From positions 1 to 41,689 of the IMG/VR virus record IMGVR_UViG_3300006999_000002: a DNA stretch of 41,689 nucleotides, one strand, 5' to 3'. The translations under genes and the position numbers were made by a program. Position 1 is the stretch's first letter, and the number at the start of each line of letters is the position of its first letter. The notes beneath the pieces were generated by a model. The model worked only from the letters and a program-made list of their open reading frames with translations, did not search any database and was not told where the DNA came from. This document shows, in pieces, positions 4,126 to 17,257 of this stretch. The DNA is from a virus.

Positions 4126-4389
4126 ATGGATACTACCCAGGCTCTAAGCCACATCGCTGCCCTGCTCAAGCGGACTGACCAGGTGCTGGAAGACGTTATG
4201 CTCGCCCAGGAGCAACTACTGGACCTTGAGAACGAGTTGAGGAGGGAGATCGAGAGCGAGTTCCAGGGGGGACCAAGCGACGACATCCTGTACAACATGT
4301 CGCCGGATAAGGGCGCACGGCACGAAGACAAGCGTAAGCCTAAGCGCCAGCAGATGAAGCGCAAACTGACAAGGGAGGGCAGCGTATGA
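4126..4389 (+). CDS. Small coiled-coil protein upstream of integrase
   Basis: The start at 4126 is set by AGGAGG 6 bases upstream. The 87-residue product has a long helical heptad-like segment (about 5-45, rich in Leu, Gln and Glu) and a strongly basic C terminus (about 65-87, with KRKPKRQQMKRK). Its stop overlaps the integrase start (ATGA), so the two are translationally coupled. A recombination directionality factor or integrase accessory protein is a natural guess from position and basic tail, but no excisionase helix-turn-helix is seen. The function is unassigned. Confidence 0.65.
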   Translation: MDTTQALSHIAALLKRTDQVLEDVMLAQEQLLDLENELRREIESEFQGGPSDDILYNMSPDKGARHEDKRKPKRQQMKRKLTREGSV

Positions 4390-5387
4390 AAGGTATCAGG
4401 AGGCGGGGCAAAAAGTGGCTGGTAGACGTGACCGTGCAGGGTAAGCGGAGGACCGCAACCTGTGACAGTTACGACCAGGCAGTAGCGCGGCGGTACGAGC
4501 TTCTCTCAGGCGCACAGCAGGCGCACAGCGGACAGAGAGCTTGGACCCTGGGGGAAGCCTATCGACGCACCAAAGACCGCGAGTGGAAGGGCACACGGTC
4601 AGAGTCCAAGGCCGTGGCCAACGCCAAGCAAGCGGTAGATTTCTTCGGCTGGGACACCAGGCTCGACAGCATCACCACCGACAGCGTGGACCAGTACGTC
4701 GAGCACATGGAGGGCCTTGGTTCATCCAACGCCACCATCAACCGCAAGTTGGCAGCACTAAGCAAGATGTTCACGGTGGCCCATCGCCGCGGAGGAGTGG
4801 GGATCAAGCCTCACTTCCCGCGCAAGAGGGAAGCCCAGGGACGCATCCGGTTCCTTACCCAGGAGGAAGAGCGGGCGCTACTCCGTACCATGGAGCACTT
4901 CGGCAAGGAAGAACACCGGGACGCATGTATCGTGCTGATCGACACCGGACTACGGTGTGGTGAGCTATGGAGGCTGACGGCTGGGGACGTGACCCTGAGT
5001 ACCGACATGCTCCACGTATGGGAGACCAAGGCGGACCTACCTCGGTCAGTCCCAATGACTGCCAGGGTGAAGGGGATTATCCGGCCGAAGGTACACGGGG
5101 CTAGTCGTGGAGACCGGCTGTTCCCCTACGACAACTGGTGGATGCGGTCTGCCTGGGAGCGAGTGCGTAGCCATCTTGGGCACGCCGAGGACCCGCAGTT
5201 TGTACCGCACATGCTCAGGCACACCTGCGCATCGCGCCTGGTCCAGCGGGGCGTGGCATTGAAGGTGGTGCAGGAGTGGCTGGGGCACAAGACCATCAGC
5301 CAGACGATGCGGTACGCTCACCTGGCACCGGCCACACTGAGTGATGCAGCCAAGGTATTGGAGACAGACCAGAAGGAGGCAGTGTGA
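4386..5387 (+). CDS. int: Tyrosine recombinase (phage integrase)
   Basis: A 333-residue protein with the full catalytic set of lambda-type tyrosine recombinases: Arg190 (TGLRCGEL), Lys215 (ETKADLP), His275 and Arg278 (HMLRHT), His301 (WLGHKT) and the nucleophile Tyr310 (MRYAHL). The N terminus (1-50) is a small basic arm-binding-type domain, and residues 51-145 look like the SAM-like core-binding domain. It would integrate and excise the genome at an attachment site. The complete tRNA-Leu 293 bases downstream, with flanking repeats, is the obvious candidate. The gene overlaps the small gene upstream (ATGA) and the next one (TGATG). No frameshift or lost residue is seen, so it should be active. 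Confidence 0.96.
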   Translation: MKGIRRRGKKWLVDVTVQGKRRTATCDSYDQAVARRYELLSGAQQAHSGQRAWTLGEAYRRTKDREWKGTRSESKAVANAKQAVDFFGWDTRLDSITTDSVDQYVEHMEGLGSSNATINRKLAALSKMFTVAHRRGGVGIKPHFPRKREAQGRIRFLTQEEERALLRTMEHFGKEEHRDACIVLIDTGLRCGELWRLTAGDVTLSTDMLHVWETKADLPRSVPMTARVKGIIRPKVHGASRGDRLFPYDNWWMRSAWERVRSHLGHAEDPQFVPHMLRHTCASRLVQRGVALKVVQEWLGHKTISQTMRYAHLAPATLSDAAKVLETDQKEAV

Positions 5388-5679: not shown

Positions 5680-5767
5680 GCGAGGGTGGTGGAACAGGCA
5701 GACACAGGAGGCTTAAAACCTCCCGCCATTCAATGGCTTGCGGGTTCGAGTCCCGCCCCTCGCACCA
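5680..5767 (+). tRNA. tRNA-Leu (anticodon UAA)
   Basis: A complete tRNA with encoded CCA. The acceptor stem GCGAGGG pairs with CCCTCGC (5757-5763), followed by discriminator A and CCA (5764-5767). The anticodon arm is GGAGG/CCTCC (5707-5711, 5719-5723) with loop CTTAAAA, giving anticodon TAA at 5714-5716. A long class II variable arm (GCCAT/ATGGC) and a T arm GCGGG/CCCGC with TTCGAGT follow, as expected for leucine. It reads UUA, a codon likely to be rare in this GC-rich genome. The location beside the integrase suggests the gene doubles as or derives from the attachment site. A 7-base loop with inverted flanks is a typical crossover core. Since the whole gene is present it could also be a working phage tRNA. 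Confidence 0.95.
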
Positions 5768-9942: not shown

Positions 9943-10394
9943 TGATAACCCGGAACAGTCGCGCCAACAAAGGTAGCGATGGGTTTCGTGGTGGGCTCGA
10001 GAGGGCCATCGGGGATCTACTCGATGGCCTTTCTATTTCGTACCGCTACGAACCTGGCGACATCGTATACCTGGTTCCTGCCCGAAACGCCAAATACAAG
10101 CCGGACTTCGTTCTTCCCAATGGAATCGTGATCGAAGCCAAGGGACGATTCGTCACGGCTGATCGGCAGAAATTCGTCAGGCTGAAAGAACAGTACCCAC
10201 GCCTTGATATTCGATTCATCTTCTCGAACCCGAATGCCCGCATCTCGAAAAAGTCCTCGACTACCTACGGAATGTGGTGCGAACGTAAGGGGTTTCCCTT
10301 TGCACCCGTGAAGGATTACGCGGCTTGGATGGCGTGGACGAACGAACCCGTAAACCAGGAATCTCTGGATGAACTCGAAAGCCTTCTGAAGTGA
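9942..10394 (+). CDS. T7-like endonuclease I (Holliday junction resolvase)
   Basis: A 150-residue homologue of T7 gp3 (149 aa). The nuclease core is clear: PDFVLPNGIVIEAKGRF contains the PD...ExK active site (Asp in PDF, Glu and Lys in EAKG), followed by LDIRFIFSN and TYGMWCERKGFPFA, as in T7. It cuts branched DNA, resolves concatemer junctions and helps degrade host DNA. The start overlaps the SSB stop and the stop overlaps the amidase start. Confidence 0.95.
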   Translation: MITRNSRANKGSDGFRGGLERAIGDLLDGLSISYRYEPGDIVYLVPARNAKYKPDFVLPNGIVIEAKGRFVTADRQKFVRLKEQYPRLDIRFIFSNPNARISKKSSTTYGMWCERKGFPFAPVKDYAAWMAWTNEPVNQESLDELESLLK

Positions 10395-10825
10395 TGACGA
10401 GAGAAACTACAGACACGGTGATCATCCATTGCTCTGCCACCCCGGCGGACATGGACATCGGAGTCAAAGAGATCGACCGATGGCATCGGGCGAAGGGCTG
10501 GCTTGAGATCGGCTACCACTTCGTCATTACGCGAAGTGGCGTAGTGCAGGAGGGTCGAAAGATCAGCAAGCCGGGAGCCCATGCAATCGGGTGGAACAAG
10601 CGAAGCATTGGGATCTGCTTGGTCGGTGGTGTCAATGAAGAGGGCGAGCCCCAGGACAATTTCACCATCGAGCAGATGGAACTACTGGAGCAACTCACCT
10701 ACGAGCTTCTCGACAAGTACCCAATACGCAATGTCATGGGCCACAACGAAGTGGCCCGTAAAGCCTGCCCGTCCTTCGATGTACAGGAGTGGCAAAAGGA
10801 AATCGGACTGGAGGACTACAAATGA
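10394..10825 (+). CDS. N-acetylmuramoyl-L-alanine amidase (T7 lysozyme-like)
   Basis: A 143-residue homologue of T7 gp3.5. The ATG at 10394 is preferred to the GTG one codon upstream, because of the TGATG overlap. Zinc ligands are His12 (VIIHCSAT), His117 (MGHNEV) and Cys125 (KACPSF), with catalytic-type Tyr41 (GYHFVI) and Lys123. It cleaves peptidoglycan amide bonds at lysis. In T7 the same protein binds and inhibits the phage RNA polymerase and links transcription to replication. Whether that holds here cannot be seen. There is no signal peptide, so it needs a holin. Holin-like genes lie at 23947 and 38515. Confidence 0.96.
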   Translation: MTRETTDTVIIHCSATPADMDIGVKEIDRWHRAKGWLEIGYHFVITRSGVVQEGRKISKPGAHAIGWNKRSIGICLVGGVNEEGEPQDNFTIEQMELLEQLTYELLDKYPIRNVMGHNEVARKACPSFDVQEWQKEIGLEDYK

Positions 10826-13391: not shown

Positions 13392-14084
13392 ATGAGCAAG
13401 CGGAACAAAAAAGACAAGTTCGCAAACAACCAGCAGAAGCGGGTCCCCAAGGTACAGGCGCTGACCGACCGGCAGCGGACGCTGATCAACTCGATCCTCG
13501 GCAGCCCCATGACCATCACGACGGGCTACTCCGGTACGGGCAAGACCTTCGTGCCGACCATGATGGCTGCGGATGCGTTCAATCGGACCCGGCAGCGCGG
13601 CGGGGTGGACAAGATCATCCTCACTCGGCCCAACGTGCAGAGCGGCAGGTCCCTCGGGTTCCGCCCGGGCGACCTCAACGAGAAGATGCTGGAGTGGTTT
13701 GCGGAGATCATGGCAGTCCTCCGTGAGGCGCTTGGGACCAATACGGTGGACCTGGCGCTCAAGCGTGGAGACATCGAGCTTGTCCCGTTCGAGACCATGC
13801 GAGGGCGGTCATTCAACAACGCCTTCGTCATCCTCGACGAGGCGCAGAACACCACCCCGCACGAAATGAAGATGTTCACCACCCGCCTGGGGATGAACAC
13901 AACCACGGTGGTCAACGGCGACATCCGCCAGTCCGACCTGAAAAGTAACAGCGGGCTTGCTGCTCTGATCGACATTACCTGGGACATGGAGATCCCTTGG
14001 ATCGACTTCGACGAGGATGACATCGTTCGATCAGACCTCTGCAAGGAATTCATTGTCCGTTGGATGGAATACGAAGCGAGGTAG
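13392..14084 (+). CDS. phoH: PhoH-like P-loop ATPase
   Basis: A 230-residue protein. ATG 13392 is chosen because GAGGAAT precedes it closely and upstream frame extension overlaps the previous gene. Walker A is GYSGTGKT (45-52) and Walker B is FVILDEAQNTT. LTRPNVQSG and NGDIRQSDL are typical PhoH signatures. PhoH proteins resemble the ATPase part of superfamily 1 helicases and are frequent in marine phages. The role in infection is unsettled, with RNA handling or phosphate response as suggestions from the family. The N terminus is Lys-rich (SKRNKKDK). Confidence 0.93.
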   Translation: MSKRNKKDKFANNQQKRVPKVQALTDRQRTLINSILGSPMTITTGYSGTGKTFVPTMMAADAFNRTRQRGGVDKIILTRPNVQSGRSLGFRPGDLNEKMLEWFAEIMAVLREALGTNTVDLALKRGDIELVPFETMRGRSFNNAFVILDEAQNTTPHEMKMFTTRLGMNTTTVVNGDIRQSDLKSNSGLAALIDITWDMEIPWIDFDEDDIVRSDLCKEFIVRWMEYEAR

Positions 14085-14086
14085 CT

Positions 14087-14176
14087 ATGGATTTTGTGGC
14101 TTTCGCACTAGGATTTGCCCTTCTCGTGGGGTGGGTAAAATTGATCACTGAACTCGTTGAAAAGGTGGCGGCATGA
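14087..14176 (+). CDS. Small membrane peptide, 29 aa
   Basis: Starts 2 bases after the phoH stop and ends overlapping the thyX start (ATGA). The sequence has one hydrophobic segment (VAFALGFALLVGWV, about 4-17) and an amphipathic tail (KLITELVEKVAA). Exact packing between two real genes supports translation. Function is unknown. A single-pass inner-membrane peptide is the obvious structure. Confidence 0.55.
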   Translation: MDFVAFALGFALLVGWVKLITELVEKVAA

Positions 14177-14898
14177 GTGCGCTTCCGCTTGAACCGATTG
14201 ATCCGCTAGAGGACGGGATCTCCAAGGTCGAATTTATCGACCGCATGGGCGACGACATCACGGTGGTCAATGCAGCCCGGGTGTCAATGAACAAGGAATC
14301 CTCGTGGGTTCACGAAGGTTACTTGGATTCCGCCATGTCCGTGCCGCGGAACATCCTGTCGAAAGGGGACGCCCGTCTAATTCGATTCCTGGCCAGGAAC
14401 AACCACTGGACGCCATTCGGGCACGTTCAGATTCAGCTACGAATCAAAGCCCCGATCTTTGTGGCCCGGCAGTGGTTCCGCCATGAGGTTGGCTTCGTCC
14501 GCAACGAGGTCAGCCGTCGGTACGTGTCCGAAAGGCCCGAGTTCTTCGTCCCGAAGACGCTGCGGAAGTTCGCGGCCAACGTGAAGCAGGGCTCCTCGGA
14601 CGAGACCGTAGAGGGCTACTCCCGGGATCATTTACTCGAGCAGTGCGAACAGACTGCGGAGGCGTACCTGTCCGTCATAGAAGAGGAAGGCGCTTGCCCT
14701 GAGCAGGCCCGAATGATCCTGCCTCAGAACACTTACACCGAATGGATCGAGACGGCCTCTCTGGCTGCCCTGGCCCGGGTGTTCGGGCTCCGTGCGGACA
14801 GCCACGCCCAGCGTGAAGTCCAGGCATACGCCCATGCCATCGACCACCTGATCCCCGGTGACCTTGCCACATCTTGGAGCGCACTGAGAGGTAACTGA
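14173..14898 (+). CDS. thyX: Flavin-dependent thymidylate synthase ThyX
   Basis: A 241-residue protein. It contains NNHWTPFGH (76-84) and the ThyX signature region RHEVGFVRNEVSRRY (103-117), corresponding to RHRxxSxNExSxR. The third residue is Glu where Arg is usual, a variation worth noting. It makes dTMP from dUMP using FAD, NADPH and methylenetetrahydrofolate, and with NrdJ and the MazG-like enzyme feeds DNA synthesis. Coupled to the peptide upstream and to the exported protein downstream (ATG at the last base of its stop). Confidence 0.93.
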   Translation: MSALPLEPIDPLEDGISKVEFIDRMGDDITVVNAARVSMNKESSWVHEGYLDSAMSVPRNILSKGDARLIRFLARNNHWTPFGHVQIQLRIKAPIFVARQWFRHEVGFVRNEVSRRYVSERPEFFVPKTLRKFAANVKQGSSDETVEGYSRDHLLEQCEQTAEAYLSVIEEEGACPEQARMILPQNTYTEWIETASLAALARVFGLRADSHAQREVQAYAHAIDHLIPGDLATSWSALRGN

Positions 14899-15194
14899 TG
14901 CGACGACTGATTCTGGCTGCACTGCTGACCGCGCCCGTGGCGGCCTCGGCTGGTGAGCTATTCGATGACCCTGAGCCGTACTTCCGTGCGGGCTGGGGGA
15001 TCAACACCACGGACCTGTACTCCGACCGGGACACATTCGGGCACACGCCCTGGGACGAGCCGGTGGCCGAGGCGGCCGTTGGTGTGGAGACCGAGGGCGG
15101 ACTCTCTATCGAGCTACGCCACATGAGCAACACGCAGGCCCCGGACGTTGGATTCAACTGGATCGGGGTCTCCTACAAGATCGGAGGCCAGTGA
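14898..15194 (+). CDS. Exported beta-rich protein, PagL-like C terminus
   Basis: A 98-residue protein with a clear signal peptide (MRRLILAALLTAPVAASA, cleavage expected after 18). The mature 80 residues alternate aromatic and polar strands, and the end, IELRHMSN...GFNWIGVSYKI, resembles outer-membrane beta-barrel strands. HMSN (His75, Ser77) recalls the His-x-Ser motif of PagL lipid A 3-O-deacylases. At the usual distance for the catalytic Glu I see none, and the protein is shorter than PagL (about 160 mature residues). It might alter the cell surface or block re-infection. The location between nucleotide-metabolism genes is unexpected. Confidence 0.6.
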   Translation: MRRLILAALLTAPVAASAGELFDDPEPYFRAGWGINTTDLYSDRDTFGHTPWDEPVAEAAVGVETEGGLSIELRHMSNTQAPDVGFNWIGVSYKIGGQ

Positions 15195-15292
15195 TGTTGG
15201 GGAGTGATAAGTGGCTGTACGCGCTGAAGCTAGCGGCGGCCATCTTCATCCCGGTCGCCCTCGTGGCCGAGTGCGTTCCGGCAGCAGGCTAA
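15194..15292 (+). CDS. Small membrane peptide, 32 aa
   Basis: The ATG overlaps the stop of the exported-protein gene (TGATG). The sequence is a short polar start, LGSDKWLYALK, and one hydrophobic helix (LAAAIFIPVALVAEC). The Cys is preceded by Glu, so this is not a good lipobox. The coupling suggests it works with the exported protein. Function is unknown. Confidence 0.5.
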   Translation: MLGSDKWLYALKLAAAIFIPVALVAECVPAAG

Positions 15293-15316: not shown

Positions 15317-17257
15317 ATGAGCACCGCGATCTTTGACATCGAAACCAACGGACTTCTGGACCAGCTGGATCGGGTCCATAGCCTCGTGATCTGTGACCCC
15401 GACACCAAGCAGGTGGCCAGCTACGCGGACCAGCCCGGGTATCCGTCCATCGAGGAAGGCGTCCAGGCTCTACTCCAAGCGGATTACCTGGTAGGCCACA
15501 ACATCATCAAGTTCGACATCCCCGCGCTGGAGAAGGTCTACCCCTGGTTCAGAATCAAGGGTCAGTGGGGCCTGGACGATGACCGGGTGATCGACACCTT
15601 GGTCTGCTCTCGGTTGATCTGGCCGGAACTCAAGGTCAACGACTTCAAGTTCCGTAAGAAACACCCCTCGTTCCCTGGCAAGCTCATAGGCAGCCACGGC
15701 TTGGAAGCCTGGGGCTATCGCCTGGGCGAGTACAAGGGCGAGTTTGCTAAAGAAACCGACTGGTCCTCCTGGTCCGAGGACATGCAGTTCTACTGCGAGC
15801 AGGACGTCCGTGTAACGGACAAGCTCTACAGCCTGATCCTGAAGCGGTGGCCCTCGGACCTGTCCGTGTGGATCGAGCATGAGTTCCAGAAGATCATCTC
15901 CGAGCAGGAGAAGAACGGCTTCCCCTTCAAGACAGGGGAGGCGGCCAAGCTCTACGCTGGCCTGGTGGGAGAGCGCCAGGAGATCGACGAGAAGCTCAAG
16001 GCGATGTTCCCTCCGTGGTGGCGGCCGGTACACCAGCACACGCCTAAGCGCACCATGCGCCGGTTCGTCGAGAACGAGAACGGCAAGTGGCACAAGCGTA
16101 AGGACGGCTGGCGGAAGGGCTGGTATGAAGGTCTGACGGAAGGCTGCAAGCTCACCAAGGTCAAGCTCCAGGAGTTCGACCCGGGTTCCCCGGACCTGGT
16201 GGCTGATCGGCTGATCAAGGTAGAAGGGTGGAAGCCCCAGGAGTTCACGTCTGAGGCATGGCATTACGGCCCCTATGAAAGGAAGCCGTCCGTGTCCGAG
16301 GATGAACTCGCCAAGCTGAACTGTGAGTCTGCACGGCTGATCGCCCGCAGGATGATGCTATCAAAGCGCATCGGGCAGATCGCTGAAGGCCAGAACGCTT
16401 GGCTGAAACTGGAACAGGACGGGCGCATCTACGGCTCCGTGATTACCAACGGTGCTGTGACGGGCCGGTGTACGCACCGCAAGCCCAACATGGCCCAGGT
16501 CCCTTCCTCCTCTTCCGAGTACGGCAGAGAATGCCGCGCTCTGTTCTACGCTCCCGAAGGCATGAAGCTCGTGGGCGTGGACGCCGACAGCCTCGAGCTT
16601 GTAGGACTGGCCCACTATCTGGCCCTGTGGGACGAAGGAGCCTTCGCCTATGCCGTGTCCACCGGCAGTAAGGAAGACGGCACTGACCCCCACACCAAGA
16701 ACCAACATGCCGCGGGCCTGTCCTCTCGGGACAACGCCAAGACCTTCATCTACGCCTTCATCTATGGAGCCGGCGACTGGAAGATCGGCCACATTGTTCG
16801 ACCTGAGGCCAACGACGCCGATAAGAAAAAGGCCGGCAAGGCCCTGAAGAGCCAGTTCCTCAAGGGGATGCCGGCATTGGATCGGCTGATGAAGGCCGTC
16901 TCCAAGGCCATCAAAAAGCGTGGCTACCTCCGGGGGCTGGACGGACGGGTCCTCCCGATCCGCTCCGAGCACTCCGCGTTGAACACGCTGATCCAATCCT
17001 GCGGTGCGGTGATTATGAAGATGGCTACCATTTTCTTTTGGCGTAAAGCAGTCGCTACCGGATTTGTTCCGGTAGAGGACTTCATGTTGGTGGCTCACGT
17101 TCATGACGAGTGGCAGACGTTGGCCCGGGAAGAAATAGCGGAAGCCATTGGCGAGCTTGGTGTTCTGTCCATCGAGGATGCTGGGGAATACCTAGGGCTC
17201 CGCTGCCCGGTGACCGGCTCCGCGGACATAGGGAATAACTGGAGTGAAACCCATTGA
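15317..17257 (+). CDS. T7 gp5-like DNA polymerase (family A)
   Basis: A 646-residue replicative polymerase (T7 704 aa). 3'-5' exonuclease: IFDIETNG (Asp7, Glu9), VGHNIIKFD, YCEQDVRVT (Asp163). Polymerase: NGAVTGRCTHRKPNMAQVPSS, motif A VGVDADSLELVGLA, FIYAFIYGAGD in the O helix and motif C HVHDEW. In T7 a 76-residue loop in the thumb binds host thioredoxin. The matching segment here (about 234-287) is shorter and Lys/Arg/Trp-rich (KRKDGWRKGW), so the processivity partner may differ. GGGGAGG precedes the ATG by 3 to 4 bases. The end overlaps the GIY-YIG gene by 4 bases. Confidence 0.97.
   Translation: MSTAIFDIETNGLLDQLDRVHSLVICDPDTKQVASYADQPGYPSIEEGVQALLQADYLVGHNIIKFDIPALEKVYPWFRIKGQWGLDDDRVIDTLVCSRLIWPELKVNDFKFRKKHPSFPGKLIGSHGLEAWGYRLGEYKGEFAKETDWSSWSEDMQFYCEQDVRVTDKLYSLILKRWPSDLSVWIEHEFQKIISEQEKNGFPFKTGEAAKLYAGLVGERQEIDEKLKAMFPPWWRPVHQHTPKRTMRRFVENENGKWHKRKDGWRKGWYEGLTEGCKLTKVKLQEFDPGSPDLVADRLIKVEGWKPQEFTSEAWHYGPYERKPSVSEDELAKLNCESARLIARRMMLSKRIGQIAEGQNAWLKLEQDGRIYGSVITNGAVTGRCTHRKPNMAQVPSSSSEYGRECRALFYAPEGMKLVGVDADSLELVGLAHYLALWDEGAFAYAVSTGSKEDGTDPHTKNQHAAGLSSRDNAKTFIYAFIYGAGDWKIGHIVRPEANDADKKKAGKALKSQFLKGMPALDRLMKAVSKAIKKRGYLRGLDGRVLPIRSEHSALNTLIQSCGAVIMKMATIFFWRKAVATGFVPVEDFMLVAHVHDEWQTLAREEIAEAIGELGVLSIEDAGEYLGLRCPVTGSADIGNNWSETH

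Follow-up and report, generated by a model that had tools for sequence, protein, structure and literature searches.

A putative half-length PagL-family protein encoded in the replication operon of a T7-like phage

The gene immediately downstream of thyX in virus record IMGVR_UViG_3300006999_000002 encodes a 98-residue protein (p98) for which sequence comparisons support membership in the PagL family of lipid A 3-O-deacylases, with homology to PagL strands 5-8 following a signal peptide. Our preferred reading, held tentatively and at slightly less than even confidence, is that p98 is a half-length, phage-borne member of the PagL lineage that is exported, forms a dimeric barrel and cuts lipid A. 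The enzyme family is already known, but the half-length form and its recurring unusual location are new. We found no description of a phage-encoded PagL or lipid A deacylase in the open-access literature, including the available portions of PMC9004378 and PMC9804370.

Genes at the locus and their context

The virus record spans the whole window (the entire stretch of DNA analysed, 41,689 bp) and has a T7-like gene plan. Its genes run in the order RNA polymerase, single-strand binding protein, endonuclease I, amidase, primase/helicase, PhoH, ThyX and DNA polymerase, followed by exonuclease, a MazG-type gene, ribonucleotide reductase and then the structural genes and terminases. Among cultured phages, LUZ100 (50.6%) and roseophages come nearest in their polymerase. 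An integrase gene (4386-5387) and then a tRNA-Leu(taa) (5680-5767) both precede the phage RNA polymerase gene, a temperate T7-like plan with a likely attachment site in tRNA-Leu; LUZ100 and other temperate T7-like phages are described (PMC10134795) as carrying the integrase close to the RNA polymerase, some of them with a retained tRNA-Leu. A host search with the tRNA-Leu matched none of 398 genomes at a strict limit of E = 1e-18 and gave partial matches (75-97%) in three of six genomes. A lipoprotein-like ORF at 24,271-24,534 matches the Rz-like spanin family phrog_1275 (E = 8.9e-8) and lies among the structural genes, not beside the terminase genes.

Four plus-strand genes lie between a phoH-like gene (13,392-14,084, plus strand; Pfam PhoH, 1.8e-59) and the T7-like DNA polymerase gene (15,317-17,257, plus strand; phrog_17, 8e-134). 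The first, p29 (14,087-14,176), is a 29-residue hydrophobic ORF with a single transmembrane segment, and its stop codon overlaps the start of thyX (14,173-14,898) in an ATGA. Both p98 (14,898-15,194) and p32 (15,194-15,292), a 32-residue hydrophobic ORF, begin at a TGATG, each with a one-base overlap with the gene before it. These positions and overlaps agree with the initial annotation on checking the sequence. By family assignment, thyX certainly encodes an FAD-dependent thymidylate synthase (Pfam Thy1, 7.7e-41; TIGR02170, 2e-35 and 122.2 bits against a cut-off of 87.9). In a near relative of the window, a 62-residue membrane protein (phrog_6006; L011:11546-11734) overlaps the thyX start; small membrane genes beside thyX may recur. 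The initial annotation had regarded envelope functions as unexpected in this operon, but a T7-type lysis amidase is encoded in the same gene region (10,391-10,825), so envelope-acting genes are normal here for the group.

We asked of p29, p98 and p32 whether they are real genes. A Shine-Dalgarno-like stretch lies 4-6 nt before the start of all four genes (p29, thyX, p98 and p32), that of p32 within the 3' end of p98. The codon score per codon of p98 (0.324) exceeds the 99th percentile (0.193) of 3325 wrong-frame windows, whereas that of p32 (0.248) falls between the 95th and 99th percentiles of 3815 such windows and that of p29 (0.083) is below the 95th percentile of 3840, though within the true-frame range. 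Dinucleotide shuffles of the two gaps rarely yielded a coupled hydrophobic ORF with a Shine-Dalgarno-like stretch (18 of 5000 for the p29 gap and 4 of 5000 for the p32 gap), and p29 and p32 therefore exceed chance. Given these start signals, codon scores and shuffle results, p98 is a gene, p32 is probably one and p29 is likely to be one, with less certainty. A comparison with the ORFs from 213 other loci, chosen mostly for T7-like polymerases (215 records counting the window and L001, which is the same record), gave no relative of any of the three.

Sequence and structural relationship of p98 to PagL

The p98 sequence begins with a signal peptide, predicted by eye, of residues 1-18 (14,898-14,951, plus strand; cleavage between ASA and GE). 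By alignment with PagLs, its H-M-S-N motif (His75, Ser77 and Asn78; 15,120-15,131, plus strand) occupies the position of the PagL catalytic His and Ser, and Asn87 (15,156-15,158, plus strand) that of the third catalytic residue. When mature p98 was compared by hhalign with 37 diverse PagLs, residues 7-76 of 80 matched PagL columns 113-182 of 192 with a probability of 83.4% and a score of 33.1; reversed p98 gave 0.3%, and the best of 300 shuffles 8.2% with a score of 19.8. Against an HMM of the same 37 sequences, from which L262, a non-PagL present in an earlier alignment, had been left out, p98 scored 11.5 bits, a value reached by none of 9730 scored shuffles (10,000 made) but by a narrow margin over the best of them (10.8). 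Its score against a narrower 29-sequence HMM was reached by 3 of 2282 scored shuffles (2500 made). The alignment is colinear over 66-70 columns from the start to the end of the mature protein and covers the C-terminal half of PagL only. The initial annotation's PagL-like secreted protein is thus borne out by hhalign and HMM comparison as to family, but only half of a PagL is present.

In mature numbering, G16, H57, S59 and N60 are invariant across p98 and the C-terminal halves of 25 phage PagLs (26 of 26 rows for H, S and N). The catalytic His and Ser of PagL occur in an HxSN motif about 24 residues from the C-terminus, and p98 has the same arrangement, with His75 24 residues from its end (in the motif search, nearly all PagL frames give 23-26). 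At the third catalytic position, in contrast, p98 has no acidic residue; this position, Glu140 in P. aeruginosa PagL, is acidic in 26 of the 37 PagLs, Asn in 10 and Gln in one. The hairpin loop of p98 also has four residues, compared with six in 36 of the 37 PagLs.

Alternatively, p98 might be an unrelated small secreted beta protein in which HxSN is coincidental. Its match to the Pfam PagL family (PF09411) is consistent with such a reading, at 13.6 bits and E = 0.075 against a curated cut-off of 23 bits. The generic Pfam family OMP_b-brl gives a lower E value than the PagL model (0.011), also below threshold. Nevertheless, the shuffle controls, the colinear alignment and the position of His75 relative to the C-terminus argue against coincidence, and we consider this explanation unlikely.

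The predicted structures bear on the same question. A model of p98 from its single sequence was poor (pLDDT 45), and one built from the PagL alignment has four strands over about 80 mature residues (pLDDT 74.9) rather than an eight-stranded barrel in one chain. The latter model aligns with residues 71-150 of PagL 2erv_B (Z 4.6, rmsd 4.0, 73 aligned residues), but unrelated proteins score equal or higher Z values. Among the top fold matches are the trimeric autotransporter anchors AtaA (Z 5.0) and Hia (Z 4.7), with four strands per chain, which would fit an unrelated beta protein. Because PagL sequences went into the model and unrelated structures match it as well or better, the 2erv_B match indicates consistency rather than proof. 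A Foldseek search with the model returned no match at E 0.001, and PagL was absent from its best 50 rows; the 2erv_B match emerged only in a second structure comparison.

No direct homologues of p98 were found in viral contigs by peptide patterns, in phage or plasmid collections, among PDB sequences, in NCBIfam or in PHROGs (best E = 0.31). The only BLAST match, in phage 201phi2-1, was rejected as chance, since it lies inside a 467-residue virion protein and there is no HxSN there. A strict p98 motif scan yielded no loci and a looser one five, one of which (L093) encodes a PagL-like barrel. The PF09411 profile matched nothing in 45 records that included the window's own, which makes it too coarse a search to detect p98; in 49 records it matched two, the already identified PagL contigs L297 and L315.

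This scarcity of relatives, in the 213 other loci as in the phage and plasmid collections, might be expected if p98 were a functionless, decaying remnant of a host-derived pagL. However, its frame is intact, its codon use is phage-like, it has a Shine-Dalgarno-like stretch and TGATG coupling on both sides, and its signal peptide leads in frame into strand 5. All of these together would hardly survive random decay, and we regard a decaying remnant as quite improbable.

Full-length PagL genes in other viral contigs

In a PagL reference collection, 73 of 299 genomes of one phylum have a PagL above the cut-off, and all of the frames are at least 168 aa long. A motif scan of viral contigs found at least 120 loci; among those listed, 104 encode PagL by HMM, of which 75 are Pseudomonas-type and the other 29 fall into 22 groups. 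The 75 Pseudomonas-type genes (among the loci listed, L249-L368) probably belong to the chromosome at the borders of proviruses; in Pseudomonas, a prophage insertion site may adjoin pagL. Free-standing half-length PagLs are absent from the 104 listed loci, where the four frames shorter than 110 aa all lie near sequence ends. Searches of 50,697 phage records with six PagLs (L093, L315, L300, L334, L286 and L282) turned up nothing convincing, the L315 query giving chance matches alone (E = 9), and none of eight phage PagLs had a convincing PHROGs family (best E = 0.014).

In at least four of the listed motif loci (L297, L315, L334 and L340), several genes mark the contig as T7-like. Contigs L334 and L340 each carry a ligase gene, a small membrane gene related to phrog_1374 directly before PagL (L334:1174-1317 and L340:3073-3243), a PagL of 142 aa, a gene for a secreted-looking protein of 72-73 aa and a polymerase. 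L315 has helicase, ligase and PagL genes, with the polymerase past the contig end, and L297 has ligase, PagL, a small soluble-looking gene and polymerase; the ligases in all four contigs were assigned by reading the sequence rather than by family search. PagL is just upstream of the DNA polymerase in three of the four (L297, L334 and L340), and in three of the four it is coupled to the next gene by TGATG, at which the 72-73-aa gene of L334 and L340 can start. The L315 and L297 PagLs score 37 bits with Pfam, against the cut-off of 23. Grouping at 70% identity on the final 60 residues puts the four PagLs together, so these contigs are treated as a single lineage.

The window's polymerase shares 46-48% identity with those of L297, L334 and L340. 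Among 159 loci with at least 1.5 kb of upstream sequence, only these three have a PagL of at least 20 bits upstream of the polymerase, although they had been picked by their PagL motif and a half-length protein like p98 (11 bits) is missed at 20 bits. An envelope gene in the replication operon thus recurs in T7-like contigs as a rare trait. That p98 and the T7-like PagLs share this slot is suggestive rather than independent proof. Pairwise scores of p98 with the T7-phage PagLs were reached by 50-152 of 1000 shuffles and are not significant, that with L276 being reached by 6 of 1000; as far as sequence can demonstrate, p98 is no nearer to the T7-phage PagLs than to other PagLs.

These contigs also bear on the initial annotation's proposal that p29, p98 and p32 act together, for example as a superinfection-exclusion set. 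Small membrane genes do flank PagL in L334 and L340, but in L297 and L315 the gene after PagL is not hydrophobic-looking and no membrane gene was seen before it. Since p29 and p32 also lack relatives among the 213 loci and thyX stands between p29 and p98, a superinfection-exclusion set of the three is very improbable.

Proposed function and comparison with known systems

We propose that p98 would be made in the middle phase of infection, as its position in the DNA-replication gene block suggests, and then exported, with p29 and p32 co-translated as small peptides of the inner membrane. Having no more than four strands, p98 is either inactive or in need of a partner, whether a second copy of itself or something else; two copies might complete a barrel (four strands plus four, as against eight in PagL), in which His75 and Ser77 would remove the 3-linked acyl chain of lipid A. 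Such deacylation might leave the outer membrane loosened and more curved and so help virion release together with the amidase and spanin that the phage encodes; it may also alter the surface for later phages. The full-length PagLs encoded at this position by other T7-like phages would probably share this purpose.

A surface modifier is the natural expectation for p98 by analogy with its family, and we infer that outer-membrane weakening before lysis would be as good a purpose as superinfection exclusion, or a better one. The idea that p98 substitutes for a missing spanin was dropped because the spanin-like lipoprotein is present; by the same token, an additional outer-membrane weakener is not obviously needed, which counts against p98 as a lysis aid. 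A four-stranded active unit is also without precedent among the PagLs found here, which counts against an active p98. The broader proposition, that T7-like phages use PagL enzymes of their own to remodel host lipid A while they replicate and that p98 is a four-stranded catalytic half forming a homodimeric barrel with two active sites, we consider rather doubtful.

It is possible, though less probable than the deacylase reading, that p98 descends from PagL without retaining catalysis and is a small structural protein of the outer membrane or periplasm, for instance a receptor-masking or superinfection-exclusion factor. Half of the barrel is absent, the third catalytic position is Asn, half-length PagLs do not stand free among the 104 listed loci, and LUZ100, the best cultured polymerase match, probably uses LPS as its receptor according to PMC10134795. 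Nevertheless, Asn occupies the third position in 10 of the 37 PagLs as well, and the active-site hairpin has kept its His, Ser, Asn and glycines despite wide divergence elsewhere, which favours retained chemistry.

If lipid A deacylation by p98 is real, the phage would edit the lipid anchor of LPS rather than its sugar chain, which might serve lysis, the release of vesicles or alteration of the surface. A PagL of half size would also probe the minimum size of an outer-membrane enzyme and the assembly of a beta barrel from two identical halves. Should p98 prove inactive, the idea can still be examined with the full-length T7-phage PagLs.

In PMC4958258, PagL is described as a lipid A deacylase in which His163 and Ser165 are essential, and its expression in Salmonella as driving the formation of vesicles that contain deacylated lipid A. 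With PagL (PF09411; structure 2ERV), p98 shares an AGxG strand, the HxSN motif, a P[ND]xGx[DEN] hairpin and the last strand, as well as an export signal and outer-membrane type, both predicted for p98. Unlike PagL, which has at least 136 aa, p98 has 98 and lacks strands 1-4, carries Asn at the third catalytic position and a four-residue hairpin loop, and is encoded in a phage replication operon. LUZ100 resembles the window in its T7-like plan, its integrase near the RNA polymerase and its ThyX, but its genome has no match to PF09411 and its ThyX gene lies downstream of the polymerase. The PagLs of L297, L315, L334 and L340 share with p98 the operon region between helicase or ligase and DNA polymerase and, in three of four, TGATG-type coupling to the next small gene, but they have 142 aa, are clear Pfam members where tested and neighbour a DNA ligase gene instead of PhoH and ThyX.
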